From Gammaproteobacteria bacterium (GTDB lineage Bacteria > Pseudomonadota > Gammaproteobacteria > JAADJB01), in NCBI GenBank assembly GCA_013151035.1, contig JAADJB010000020.1:1-63216 (forward strand): a DNA stretch of 63,216 nt. The letters are read 5' to 3'. Below are positions 10,826 through 46,240 of this stretch, in pieces. A model generated the notes under the pieces. It had not been told where the DNA came from and made no database searches. It saw only the letters and a list, made by a program, of their open reading frames with translations. The translations under genes and the position numbers were made by a program. Within the stretch, counting starts at the first letter, position 1, and each line of letters starts with the position of its first letter.

Positions 10826-10899
10826 AAGCTGATAATTATCCCTTATCTATGCGCGTTATGGAACCTCTAATCAAGCTTGTTGGGTTACACTGCGCACTC

Positions 10900-10962
10900 T
10901 GTCATCCTCGCGAATGCGGGGATCTATTGGTTTATGGATTCCCGAGTGCGCGGGAATGACAG
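10900..10962. repeat. Family B palindromic repeat inserted between gspK and gspL
   Basis: Two facing arms (TGTCATCCTCGCG and CGCGGGAATGACA) form a long imperfect hairpin of about 63 bp. It fills most of the gspK-gspL gap in an operon whose other gsp junctions overlap or lie within 15 bp. It lies just 3' of the gspK stop codon. Confidence 0.8.
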
Positions 10963-15360: not shown

Positions 15361-15391
15361 CTTGTCATTCCCGCGCAGGCAGGAATCCAGT
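15361..15391 (+). repeat. Family B repeat, single arm, upstream of thiD
   Basis: A single TTGTCATTCCCGCGCAGGC-type arm ends 14 bp before the thiD start codon, so it forms the thiD leader. Confidence 0.65.
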
Positions 15392-22951: not shown

Positions 22952-22962
22952 GGTATGGCAAC

Positions 22963-23033
22963 TTGTCATTCCCACACAGGCGGGAATCCATTATATTACA
23001 GGCATTAGATCCCCGCCTACGCGGGGATGACAG
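22963..23033. repeat. Family B palindromic repeat pair
   Basis: Facing arms, TTGTCATTCCCACACAGGCG and CCGCCTACGCGGGGATGACA, are separated by about 18 bp of AT-rich sequence. The pair forms a long hairpin upstream of the RND gene. Confidence 0.7.
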
Positions 23034-38217: not shown

Positions 38218-39210
38218 ATGAATATAGCATCGACACTCATTGACCCCTTTAATCGTTCCATCGATTATGTGCGCCTGTCGGTTACTGACCGTTGTGATTT
38301 ACGTTGTTTTTATTGCATGCCTGAAGGCTTTGACGACTATGAAGAACCCGAACATTGGCTCAACTTTGATGAGATCGAGCGTGTCATCGCGGCCTTTGGT
38401 CGACTCGGTGTCTCCAGGGTACGCATTACCGGGGGTGAACCGCTAGTACGTAAGAATATCCCGCAACTGGCACAACGCCTCACCCGATTAAAAGGGATTG
38501 ATGACCTGTCACTCAGCACCAATGCGACACGTCTGGCGAAACATGCTGAAGACTTGTATCAATCGGGTATCTCCCGCATCAATGTCAGTCTCGATACCCT
38601 GAAACCCGAGCGTTTTAAACAAATCACCAAGGGTAATCTGGATAAGGTAGTGCGCGGTCTAATGGCGGCCAAAGTAACGGGCATCTCACCCATCAAGATC
38701 AATATGGTCATTATGCGCGGCATTAATGATGATGAGGTCGAAGACATGGTGGAATTCTGTCTGCAACACGGCTTCACCCTGCGCTTCATTGAGACCATGC
38801 CGATGGGCGATACCGGCAGGGATATTGCCAATAAATACTTTATTGATTTGCAAACCATTCGGCAACGACTGGAACAACGCTACAAATTAATACCCGGTGT
38901 GATGCCCGGTGGTGGCCCGGCACGCTATGTGCAGATCGCCAATACCGATCTGCATATTGGCTTCATTACCCCGATGTCGCAACACTTTTGTGAGACCTGT
39001 AACCGTGTACGCCTGTCCGCAGACGGCACGCTATACCTGTGCCTGGGGCAGGAGCACAAATTTGAGCTGCGCCCCCTGTTACGCGCGGGGATCAGCGATG
39101 CTGAATTGGAACAGGCGATTCGTAGCGCTATTGCACAGAAACCGGAACGCCATGAGTTTAATGACAAGCCCGAACAGGTGGTTCGGTTTATGTCGATGAC
39201 GGGTGGGTGA
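38218..39210 (+). CDS. moaA: GTP 3',8-cyclase (molybdenum cofactor biosynthesis)
   Basis: This 330-residue radical-SAM enzyme converts GTP to 3',8-cH2GTP, the first step to molybdopterin, which SoeA needs. The N-terminal cluster is Cys26, Cys30, Cys33 (CDLRCFYC). RITGGEPLVRK binds SAM. The C-terminal cluster is Cys258, Cys261 and Cys275 (FCETCNRVRLSADG, YLCLG). The C-terminal Gly-Gly needed for activity is present (SMTGG). It is complete and monocistronic; no other moa gene is adjacent. Confidence 0.95.
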   Translation: MNIASTLIDPFNRSIDYVRLSVTDRCDLRCFYCMPEGFDDYEEPEHWLNFDEIERVIAAFGRLGVSRVRITGGEPLVRKNIPQLAQRLTRLKGIDDLSLSTNATRLAKHAEDLYQSGISRINVSLDTLKPERFKQITKGNLDKVVRGLMAAKVTGISPIKINMVIMRGINDDEVEDMVEFCLQHGFTLRFIETMPMGDTGRDIANKYFIDLQTIRQRLEQRYKLIPGVMPGGGPARYVQIANTDLHIGFITPMSQHFCETCNRVRLSADGTLYLCLGQEHKFELRPLLRAGISDAELEQAIRSAIAQKPERHEFNDKPEQVVRFMSMTGG

Positions 39211-39211
39211 G

Positions 39212-39490
39212 CCGAAACCGAATGTTCAGTGAACATTCGCAGTTCGGCGAACGACTGCACACGATGTGCAGGCTGGGGCCTAGGTAAAATCACAATAAAA
39301 TCACAATACCTCGCCAGGGATGGCGAAATACCCCCTCAGGCAGATGCACGTTCCGAAACCGAATGTTCAGTGAACATTCGCAGTTCGGCGAACGACTGCA
39401 CACGATGTGCAGGCTGGGGCCTAGGTAAAATCACAATTCGCCAGGGATGGCGAAATACCCCCTCAGGCAGATGCACGTTCCGAAGCCGAA
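39212..39490. repeat. Tandem repeat of a highly structured 127-141 bp unit
   Basis: Unit 1 is 39212-39352, unit 2 is 39353-39479, and a third copy breaks off after about 11 bp. The two units are nearly identical. Unit 1 carries 14 extra bases that duplicate AAAATCACAAT. Each unit holds GAATGTTCA/TGAACATTC, GTTCG/CGAAC, CTGCACA/TGTGCAG and TCGCC/GGCGA hairpins. An open frame crosses it, but the palindromes argue for an RNA- or DNA-level element. Confidence 0.85.
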
Positions 39491-39527
39491 TATCCAGCAC
39501 CCAAAAACCCCGAACCCAACCTCCTGC

Positions 39528-39548
39528 GGTGCGTAATACGCACCCTAC
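39528..39548 (-). repeat. Family A repeat at the 3' end of the cyclase gene
   Basis: GGTGCGTAATACGCACC followed by CTAC. The TAG stop of the cyclase (39545-39547 on the minus strand) comes from this repeat. Confidence 0.8.
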
Positions 39549-41857
39549 TTGCTGGTCAGTGTCGTCACTCCATCCCAATCATCAGGTGGTGGGGTCTCCA
39601 GATAGTGACGACAACGCGTAATATATTCTTCACAGGTCTTGTCATTCGGATGTTGCTCAAGACTCTCTTCCAGTAATGCCTTTGCGGTAGAAAAATCATG
39701 CCCCTGAAAAGCTGTTATCGCCTCTTGCCAGCGTATCAGATAGGCTTCATTATCCCGCTCGCCCTTGCGACAACAGAGTTCATAAATACGAATAGGCACC
39801 TTCTTGCCTTTAACCCGTACCAGATCCAGGAAACGGAAATCAAAATGTTCCTGCACCTGTTCGTAGCTCGCTTCGCTGACGACAATATCCACGCCATACA
39901 TCTTGCTCAGGCCTTCTAACCGTGATGCCAGATTCACGTTATCACCTAACGCGGTATAGGCAAAACGAAAACTGGAACCCAGATTACCCACCACCACCTC
40001 GCCGGTATGCACACCCACACCGATCTTGATGGGAAACAGATGCGCCAGTTCCGGGCAACAATCGACCACATGATCCAGTGCCTCAATCATTATTATTGCA
40101 GTATTACAGGCATCCAGCGGATGATTTTCAGTGGGGTATGGTGCGCCAAACAATGCCATCACTGCATCACCAATATACTTATCCAGGGTACCATTATTAT
40201 CCAGCACCGCTGCTGTCATGGGGTCCATATAACAATTCAGAAAACGCGCTAATTGCTGCGGCGTAAGATTCTCCGAAAGATTGGTAAAACTACGGATATC
40301 TGAAAACAACAGGGTGATATTTTTATTCTCACCACCAAACTGCAATAACTCGGGATTCCTGGTCAACTGGTCCACCAAACCTGGATGCAAATAAGACTTA
40401 AAGGCAGAACGCACCGTTGAATAACTACGTTCAACGGCTACAGTAAAATAGAGCGTTAACATTAAATAGGACAAGAACCACGCCATCACAGGATAGATTA
40501 AAATAATCCACAATTGCTGATGTGCAAATAAATAATAATTAAGAACAACATAGGCGAGTAGCAGGGCAAGCGAGAATATAAAACGACCCAACATAGTGTT
40601 AAGGCGTGGTAACACTATGACCAATACCATGACCAGAATAAACATGGTGACCAGATCCAGTAGAATATCAATGTTAGTGCGTTGCAAAGGACGGCCATGT
40701 TGCATAATCGCCAAGGTCTCAGCCGATATCCCTGATTGATCATCCAACGACAGATTACTAATCATGTCAGCAAGAATATTGTCAGCAACATTGGCCTGTA
40801 TCTCCAGCCCTGGAAAAGTCGGCCCAAAGGGTGTGCTATGCGCGTCATAGACCCCAATTGCCGTCACCCCTAACAACACCAGCTTGCCCTCCAGGGCACC
40901 CGCAGGTGCTTTTCCATGCAAGACATCCACTGCGGAATAGGTGGGGATCGTTCCTCTAGGGCCACGATAATTAATGACCATGCTGCCACCCTCGTCCACC
41001 TTAACCTTATTGCCACCCACCGAGAGATGGGTCAAACCATACTCTTCGGCATAGACCACTAAAGGAGCATCGCCAAAATAATGCACAATGCCTTTTAATG
41101 CCAATGATGGATAGAACTGATCGTGATAACGCATCACCAACGGTGCCTTACGGATCACACCATCGGCACCCGGAGGGAAATTAAAATAACCAGCACCCAG
41201 ACCCACACCGGCAATCAAGGGAATATTAGTTTCCACTCCATAGGCATCACGCGCTGGAAAATCTTCCACCCGCGCACGGATTGCAGTCACCGCTGAACTA
41301 GCTAACAACAAGCTCTCTTCATCGATGGGTATCGGAGTCAGGTTCTCGATCTGTTTCTCGCTGGTATAAAAAAATTGCCCGTTGACGACGTTACCAAACT
41401 CCATAATGGTACCCGCCAAAACTTCATCTGCCGAGCGCATATCCACACCTTGCAATAACTGTTCATACAGATTGACATCCCGTGCCTTTCTCGCCTCAAT
41501 CTGCTCCATGATCAAATTACGTTCGGGTTCGGAAAAAACAATGTCCAGCGCAATCACAGCAGCCCCCTGCTGATTCATCGCCCTGATCATGTCAGCAATA
41601 ACGGTACGCGACCACGGCCAGCGCCCCACTGTCTCCAGACTAACATCATCCACTGCCACAATAACAACTTGGTTAGTGACTGCAATCGGGCCACGCATAC
41701 GGAAACGCGCATCCAGCAGACGACCTTCGATATCGGTCAAGGATTGGGAATCAGAGAAATAGGCAGCCAGACAGATAACAAAAATAATAAAGCCTATCAG
41801 ATAACTGGTTAGCTGAATCTTGCGTGGACTGGGTGGTGGTTTTAAGTGTGCATCCAT
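39545..41857 (-). CDS. CHASE2-domain adenylate/guanylate cyclase (class III)
   Basis: This 770-residue membrane sensor makes cAMP or cGMP. TM1 is at about 18-38. A periplasmic CHASE2 domain spans about 50-370 (PIAVTNQVVIVAVDDVSLETVGRWPW; MVINYRGPRGTIPTYSAVDVL). Three TMs lie at about 395-480. The class III cyclase domain spans about 505-690, with metal Asp520 in LLFSDIRSFT and Asp564 in YIGDAVMALFG. LDKYIGD carries the Lys usually linked to ATP specificity. A short C-terminal helical tail resembles a TPR stub. It is the last gene of a minus-strand operon with FecR and HYR genes. Confidence 0.9.
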   Translation of the reverse strand: MDAHLKPPPSPRKIQLTSYLIGFIIFVICLAAYFSDSQSLTDIEGRLLDARFRMRGPIAVTNQVVIVAVDDVSLETVGRWPWSRTVIADMIRAMNQQGAAVIALDIVFSEPERNLIMEQIEARKARDVNLYEQLLQGVDMRSADEVLAGTIMEFGNVVNGQFFYTSEKQIENLTPIPIDEESLLLASSAVTAIRARVEDFPARDAYGVETNIPLIAGVGLGAGYFNFPPGADGVIRKAPLVMRYHDQFYPSLALKGIVHYFGDAPLVVYAEEYGLTHLSVGGNKVKVDEGGSMVINYRGPRGTIPTYSAVDVLHGKAPAGALEGKLVLLGVTAIGVYDAHSTPFGPTFPGLEIQANVADNILADMISNLSLDDQSGISAETLAIMQHGRPLQRTNIDILLDLVTMFILVMVLVIVLPRLNTMLGRFIFSLALLLAYVVLNYYLFAHQQLWIILIYPVMAWFLSYLMLTLYFTVAVERSYSTVRSAFKSYLHPGLVDQLTRNPELLQFGGENKNITLLFSDIRSFTNLSENLTPQQLARFLNCYMDPMTAAVLDNNGTLDKYIGDAVMALFGAPYPTENHPLDACNTAIIMIEALDHVVDCCPELAHLFPIKIGVGVHTGEVVVGNLGSSFRFAYTALGDNVNLASRLEGLSKMYGVDIVVSEASYEQVQEHFDFRFLDLVRVKGKKVPIRIYELCCRKGERDNEAYLIRWQEAITAFQGHDFSTAKALLEESLEQHPNDKTCEEYITRCRHYLETPPPDDWDGVTTLTSK

Positions 41858-46155: not shown

Positions 46156-46240
46156 ATTTCAAGGGGTCAGAGCTCTTGAAAGCTCAAAACTTTCATACCA
46201 TTCATATCAATTCCATTCAAGAGCTCTGACCCCTTGAAAT
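46156..46240. repeat. Perfect 25-bp inverted repeat filling the fecR-HYR gap
   Basis: The arms 46156-46180 and 46216-46240 are exactly complementary and contain AAGGGGTCAGAGCTCTTGAA, with a 35-nt AT-rich loop. On the mRNA the 3' arm ends 3 nt before the HYR lipoprotein ATG, so the hairpin would cover its ribosome site. The GGGGTCAGAG core resembles dispersed repeats seen beside REP-associated transposases in other genomes. Confidence 0.92.

Follow-up and report, generated by a model that had tools for sequence, protein, structure and literature searches.

A structured, probably mobile element that follows GG and is repeated in tandem at the end of moaA in a gammaproteobacterial genome

The tandem array directly behind moaA in a gammaproteobacterial contig (GenBank assembly GCA_013151035.1, contig JAADJB010000020.1, positions 1 to 63,216; the whole stretch is called the window below) recalls the RtT RNA of E. 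coli, repetitive extragenic palindromic sequences, miniature inverted-repeat transposable elements and the palindromic elements of Rickettsia. We consider it likely that the array represents one copy of a mobile, non-autonomous element that is targeted to GG, often duplicates a piece of its host and has doubled in tandem at moaA. A family of mobile, structured, non-autonomous elements is well supported; it is represented here by a covariance model, R1, and its members are called R1 elements. The first-pass annotation of the window, made from the sequence alone, favored a mobile or RNA element over a protein. In support, the genome contains another, diverged copy whose stems show compensatory changes; the fold recurs at different genes in 48 of the 369 gammaproteobacterial genomes sampled (43 of 272 genera); the flanks point to insertion after GG with duplication of target sequence; and relatives have element-free sites. 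Searches of its own and public genomes thus find the unit neither unique to this locus nor absent elsewhere.

As far as our searches show, neither Rfam nor the literature covered (the PMC open set, with most subscription papers outside it) contains the family. Rfam returned no family for the window, either at the gathering threshold or at E 10, and no description of elements of this kind within tRNA or riboswitch genes came up in the papers. We appear to be dealing with widespread, tiny, and to that extent undescribed, elements that enter essential RNA genes and rebuild them by copying part of the target.

Described repeats compared with the family

RtT RNA (RF00391), from the tyrT operon of E. 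coli, resembles the R1 elements in forming tandem units that adjoin a tRNA and hold the tRNA 3′ end. RtT is associated with enterobacteria. Its repeats show GGGTGAG or GGATGAG after GGGGAA, followed by hairpins, with GAACG in the first copy, and an open reading frame (tpr) overlies one repeat. The E. coli tyrT repeats were rejected as members of the family, R1 giving no match to them even at E 10. The RtT model in turn matched neither the window (gathering threshold or E 10) nor the R1 elements in 17 loci (E 5). RtT matches were seen here only behind tRNAs, whereas R1 elements also lie in riboswitches and protein genes. Kinship between RtT and the R1 elements is offered as a lead. The family would add a second natural case, beside E. 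coli tyrT, of tandem repeats holding tRNA pieces, and would make the origin of such repeats testable over dozens of genera. An RtT match (L228:438-572; 53 bits, gathering 45) was also observed behind a tRNA of a Sedimenticola-type genome, adjoining an R1 element at 727.

Repetitive extragenic palindromic (REP) sequences and bacterial interspersed mosaic elements (BIMEs), together with the REP-associated tyrosine transposases (RAYTs) of the GTAG and CGTC super-families, share with the R1 family short palindromes, one end of which is a conserved foot, a high copy number within the genome, grouping in arrays and, presumably in the case of R1, mobilisation in trans, according to the available portions of PMC3733652 and PMC8266576. 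Within the same limits, the R1 family is unlike REP/BIME in its longer three-hairpin unit, its GG target, its long host duplications and its insertion in tRNA and riboswitch genes, and no linkage to RAYT was seen in 12 genomes and 30 Y1_Tnp loci. The REP foot is a GTAG-type tetranucleotide on one palindrome of 20-50 nt; the R1 foot is GTGAG or GTAAG, on a larger unit. The string GTGAG has no occurrence in PMC3733652.

Miniature inverted-repeat transposable elements (MITEs), as presented in the accessible part of a review (PMC10969869), are, like the R1 family, small non-autonomous mobile DNAs beside or in genes with target duplications; their duplication is a few bp of fixed length, against 15 to 107 bp in the R1 family. 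No terminal inverted repeats of the MITE kind were seen in the window unit, the inverted repeats of which are internal to hairpins. A subfamily in G369 and G082 sits within another inverted-repeat element. The word tRNA does not occur in the MITE review. We also observed that in Muproteobacteria-type genomes and G082 the hairpin core lies within a larger element whose ends are of the CCGCAAAGACGCGAAGG .. CCTTTGCGCCTTTGCGG or CCGCCAAGACGCCAAG type. Such composite elements, in many copies, occur at L034, L041, L048, L050, L055, L061, L078, L081, L083, L008 and L011.

Rickettsia palindromic elements, in the excerpts of PMC3733652 and PMC10969869 at hand, are palindromic sequences of about 150 bp inserted in functional genes, as here. 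They are read in frame, whereas in the R1 family the host gene is restored by the duplication or ended by the element's stop codon.

The array behind moaA

The array is flanked by moaA (+) and a convergent CHASE2/cyclase gene (−). Self-comparison of the window revealed 85 bp of 100% identity between 39212-39296 and 39353-39437 and a 95% match between 39311-39370 and 39438-39497. The spacing of the units is 141 bp and then 127 bp, and a stub at 39480-39497 closes the array. This bears out the two near-identical units and stub described earlier, and the three palindromes named at that time are present in the units. The start, formerly placed at 39212, lies at 39207, since the left end of the array is GTGAG (39207-39211), with the moaA stop codon TGA (39208-39210) inside it. 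The features of the locus are:

38218..39210, + strand: moaA (GTP 3′,8-cyclase), the host gene; open reading frame, TIGR02666 at 389.3 bits (cut-off 284.05)
39205..39206, + strand: GG target dinucleotide directly 5′ of the element, as before 93/98 family members
39207..39211, + strand: GTGAG, 5′ end of the element, giving the moaA stop TGA; R1 match 39207-39280, 80.6 bits
39212..39247, + strand: stem A (CCGAA/TTCGG) around hairpin 1 (39219-39239, CGAATGTTCA/TGAACATTCG) of unit 1; from fold and covariation
39248..39253, + strand: CGAACG motif, CGAAC lying opposite GTGAG with three standard pairs flanking a tandem G.A mismatch
39255..39271, + strand: hairpin 2 of unit 1, CTGCACA-CGA-TGTGCAG, its loop lacking the GGA typical of the family
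39311..39326, + strand: hairpin 3 of unit 1, TCGCC-AGGGAT-GGCGA, with a hexaloop of the ANGGAX type (loop type after the available part of PMC4005645)
39353..39479, + strand: unit 2, 127 bp, without GTGAG and with ACGTT in front; R1 match 39350-39421, 60.6 bits
39438..39453, + strand: hairpin 3 of unit 2; from window self-comparison
39480..39497, + strand: stub of a third unit (CCGAAGCCGAATATCCAG); from window self-comparison

The final moaA codons, GGT GGG TGA, span the insertion point (GGT GG / G TGA). The locus possesses the hallmarks of the family: GG followed by GTGAG, stem A with the tandem G.A, hairpin 1, CGAACG and hairpin 2. RNA folding of both units beat the mean of 200 dinucleotide shuffles on each strand, with z values of −2.95 (unit 1) and −3.18 (unit 2) on the + strand and of −2.34 and −2.12 on the − strand.

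Unit 1 is longer than unit 2 by 14 bp, which the first-pass annotation attributed to an internal duplication. This holds for 11 bp, a tandem copy of TAAAATCACAA; the other 3 bp (ACC) are not duplicated. The difference may be a gain in unit 1 or equally a loss in unit 2. Copying was also said to be recent, with which the 85 identical bp are compatible, though they carry no date. In unit 2 the GTGAG of unit 1 is replaced by ACGTT, and the resulting ACGTT-CCGAA contains CGTTC, able to pair with GAACG. Because unit 2 starts in this way, without GTGAG, we regard the tandem copy as a duplication of the unit and not as a second insertion at GG; the unit was probably duplicated in tandem after insertion, with two units as assembled. 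Later array units likewise lack GTGAG in G402 (L216).

A diverged copy is present in the same genome at C23:98348-98584 (−). It too has a stop codon at its start, and the gene in front of it is similar to the C-terminal part of B12-dependent ribonucleotide reductase (NF006417, 53 bits, under the cut-off). Between the window and C23 the changes in the stems are compensatory: CCGAA/TTCGG of stem A has become CTGAA/TTCAG, GAATGTTCA has become GAATGCCC with its partner changed too, and in hairpin 2 CTGCACA has become CCGCACA, again with a changed partner. This genome contains four R1 matches, including a weak one in a second C23 unit (reverse complement of L004, about 1040-1170). In the latter unit, palindromic inserts (CCGCCATCCCTGGCGG; CTGCAGGGATGCAG) were observed in the loops of hairpins 1 and 2, that is, elements nested in hairpin tips.

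BLAST comparison of the window array with phage and plasmid records gave no match, and an exact 42-base pattern gave 0 matches in viral contigs. Two viral stretches found with a relaxed pattern (L093 and L094) were rejected as members, being without GTGAG and chance-like.

Junctions with the host and duplicated host sequence

A seed pattern built from hairpin 1 and CGAACG returned 74 stretches among 84,980 species genomes. Fifty-five matches (52 distinct) with GT[GA]AG were kept out of 78 loci, own-genome and relative copies included; the remaining pattern matches, without GT[GA]AG and many apparently within coding sequence, were dropped. Alignment A1 contains 53 sequences, and its CGAATG, CATTCGC and CGAACG columns are invariant by construction, being fixed in the seed pattern. 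Its consensus fold (RNAalifold) consists of GT..G opposite C..AC, stem A, hairpin 1 (which the search pattern fixes) and hairpin 2. Paired cells amount to 94.6%, compared to 82.6% in shuffles, and double changes to 119 versus 32, with 0/500 shuffles as high. Alignment A2, of 81 R1-reached matches from 70 loci, leaves hairpin 1 free to vary, yet it is paired; 349 double changes were counted versus 78 in shuffles, pair counts here being biased towards the model structure to which A2 was fitted. In both alignments the stem sequences differ among copies while pairing is retained.

Among 57 relatives of the G374 lineage, 22 also have R1 matches, as do 6 of 398 genomes in a phylum-wide draw, all six of them Gammaproteobacteria. 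The highest numbers of matches were 51 (G369), 41 (G371) and 37 (G372). Sinimarinibacterium flocculans, which is in culture, has 37 R1 matches. The scan of 369 genomes scored at most 12 candidates per genome, so that the copy counts of that scan are lower bounds.

Junctions were tabulated for 98 distinct elements and duplications for 89 loci, the elements being required to have a hairpin 1 of 7 bp and three outer pairs in stem A; members lost to this filter include L021, L029, L047, L076, L077, L092, L228, L230 and L268. GG, which was not used in selection, lies directly 5′ of 93 of the 98 elements. The first five bases of the element are GTGAG in 93/98 and GTAAG in 5/98. Where a tRNA is hit in the sense orientation, insertion is mostly at the D-loop GG (tRNA position 19; 9/13 rows), and in the antisense orientation it mostly lies 16 bases away from the 3′ end of the tRNA (7/10 rows). 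Further targets are the thiamine pyrophosphate (TPP) riboswitches of thiC (L030, L049, L079 and L159, with L215 representing the same place as L159), a glycine riboswitch (L242) and the starts of mtnC (L087, L251), hypA (L040) and nirB (L075). Riboswitches and tRNAs were identified with Rfam (among the TPP riboswitches, L049 and L215), and mtnC, hypA, nirB and thiC with NCBIfam.

The host sequence left of the element, ending exactly at GG, recurs 3′ of the element in 36 of the 89 loci and in 0 of 440 shuffles, and the target gene therefore stays intact. The duplication measures 15 to 107 bp in these 36 loci and is anchored on the GG side only. At L049, L215 and L242 the relic and the intact riboswitch both reach the Rfam gathering score.

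The other edge of the duplication varies. For sense tRNAs the left edge falls outside the tRNA by 0 to 9 nt in 9/13 rows, for antisense tRNAs it lies +1 to −2 from the tRNA 3′ end in 4/10 rows, and it is at most 1 nt inside the tRNA in the 23 rows of the table. At L054 it coincides with the mature tRNA 5′ end (offset 0). The rows removed by the filter have offsets of 0 (L029, L047, L092, L228), −1 (L021, L076), −4 (L230) and −7 (L268), and in L077 the edge is 5 nt inside the tRNA. The wider table and L077 do not bear out a left edge exactly at the mature tRNA 5′ end in every case, so that an edge at the RNA end is a tendency and no rule. The starts of hypA, mtnC and nirB were likewise considered as RNA 5′ ends, which fails in L251, where mtnC overlaps the upstream gene. 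Selection for an intact gene explains why the edge is not inside the tRNA; its crowding near the tRNA end goes beyond what selection alone explains.

The direction of change can be read at two targets. In G374 a promoter (TTGACT..TACAAT..) to the left of the three-unit array at tRNA-Gly (L054) has the layout found directly before tRNA-Gly in the 15 relatives printed. This shared layout indicates that the native promoter and leader are on the left and that the element and the copied 5′ part of the tRNA have been added. In front of thiC, each of the four loci printed that carry an element contains 2-3 TPP cores, spaced about 180-195 nt, and 10 of the 12 other loci printed have one core and no GGGTGAG; of the remaining two, L307 adjoins an upstream R1 match and L309 has two matches 534 nt apart, which were left uncounted. 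Judged by these sequence comparisons, the element-free relatives show the ancestral arrangement at tRNA-Gly and thiC.

Two observations on the targets may be added. Before thiC in L159, L079, L030 and L049, tandem, partly intact TPP riboswitches have an element between each, and this may alter thiamine control. At nirB (reverse complement of L075, 6370-6520) the relic frame seems to run from its ATG through the element and to end with ATGA over the intact nirB start, the relic and intact frames overlapping as if translationally coupled.

Mechanism, alternative explanations and other repeats

The mobile element that we propose would be about 100-140 bp long, in the order GTGAG, stem A, hairpin 1, stem A′, CGAACG, hairpin 2, linker, hairpin 3 and tail. 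Its GTGAG end would join the host directly 3′ of GG, and at many loci the host stretch from the gene or RNA end to the GG would be recopied behind the tail, leaving an intact tRNA, riboswitch or frame downstream. At moaA it would have inserted between the last codons, and no repair would be needed because the element brings the stop codon and the final base of the last Gly codon; the unit would then have been duplicated in tandem. A trans-acting enzyme presumably acts on a folded single strand, either DNA or RNA, and the duplication could arise by a template switch from the 3′ end of the element to the end of the target RNA or its single-stranded DNA.

In a more specific form, which we think doubtful, this would be a bacterial element resembling short interspersed nuclear elements (SINEs): the folded element and the end of a cellular RNA (a tRNA, a riboswitch leader or an mRNA start) would be copied by end-to-end template switching, and the chimera would join the chromosome at a GG, which would pair with the CC at the end of the element. 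If true, it would account for the frequent start of the copied piece at the mature tRNA end or close to a transcript start, regardless of the length copied (19, 26, 51, 68 or 70 nt), and for antisense insertions beginning near the 3′ end of the tRNA.

Several findings weigh against a GG-targeted mobile element with host duplication. Mobility is read from the comparison of sequences. At the threshold used, 53 of the 89 loci have no duplication, and both loci of the window genome are among them: none was found in the flanks at moaA or at C23. The lack of GTGAG in unit 2 means that no second GG insertion took place there. The left edge is far outside the tRNA (offsets −22 to −87) in 10 of the 23 tRNA rows, in some through an included older unit. 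Finally, no neighboring protein is shared, with 0 families in at least three of 27 loci (3.5 kb scanned).

A function compatible with mobility is suggested by the hairpin loops. If transcribed, units with two ANGGAX hairpins may titrate CsrA (or RsmA), or put the host gene under CsrA, a reading that we hold to be possible though somewhat improbable. The high-affinity RsmE site is an ANGGAX hexaloop on a stem (PMC4005645, available part). An A(N)GGA loop caps hairpin 2 in 56 of 79 elements, compared with 8 of 285 control hairpins from flanking tiles, the commonest loops being ATGGAT, AGGGAT, AGGAT and AAGGAT; for hairpin 3, under a loose best-hairpin rule, the count is 19/71. The csrA gene is present in 14 of 16 element-bearing genomes, including G000, and was not found in the metagenome assemblies G376 and G383. 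This reading leaves GG, GTGAG and the duplications unexplained. Many copies are antisense to the host tRNA, copies occur in both orientations, and the high-copy G369 subfamily has non-GGA loops in hairpin 2. In the window, too, hairpin 2 is without GGA and hairpin 3 alone keeps AGGGAT. Putative CsrA binding is the best testable functional lead: were CsrA to bind the A(N)GGA hairpins, the element would also scatter CsrA sites over the leaders of tRNA, thiamine and glycine genes.

A REP-type identity of the unit, in which a RAYT (TnpA-REP) would mobilise the palindrome as single-stranded DNA and GTGAG would stand in for the GTAG foot, is unlikely. REP of the E. coli type requires stem mismatches (PMC8266576, as far as available), and the stem that follows GTGAG here does contain a tandem G.A mismatch. 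Of 12 genomes with elements, 10 have Y1_Tnp, G000 among them, yet G374 and G376 carry elements without a Y1_Tnp match. The 30 Y1_Tnp loci fetched have no convincing GTGAG..CGAACG element nearby, only two chance-like matches. A unit of 100-140 bp with three hairpins differs from a REP of 20-50 nt, and the passages available make no mention of long host duplications.

That the array is a mere slippage product of a palindromic region between moaA and the cyclase gene, with no mobile history, is highly improbable. Near-identical tandem units, the second without GTGAG, between convergent genes would suit slippage, but the fold recurs at the second locus of the window genome and, at unrelated genes, in 47 other genomes of the class sample. 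For the unit itself slippage is already contradicted; for the step from one unit to two it may still hold. An open frame does cross both units, as noted in the first-pass annotation (39229-39621, 130 aa, with repeated peptide), but that it encodes a real repeat protein is scarcely credible, as it has no Pfam match, substitutions preserve base pairing, the 14-bp indel within the unit shifts the frame, and the C23 copy is broken up by other palindromes.

The window contains other repeats. At least 11 copies of a palindromic repeat of the GGTGCGYANTRCGCACCCTAC type were seen, at 101, 15305, 19713, 20545, 27082, 38064, 38091, 39528, 41867, 48766 and 48806; the one at 39528-39548, placed between the array and the cyclase gene convergent with moaA, extends over the end of that gene. 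A third repeat, of the TCATTCCCGCGCAGGCGGGAATCC type, occurs in both orientations (126-185, 10898-10962, 15361-15389 and 22962-23033). Positions 46156-46240 form a perfect 25-nt inverted repeat, ATTTCAAGGGGTCAGAGCTCTTGAA, with a spacer of 35 nt.
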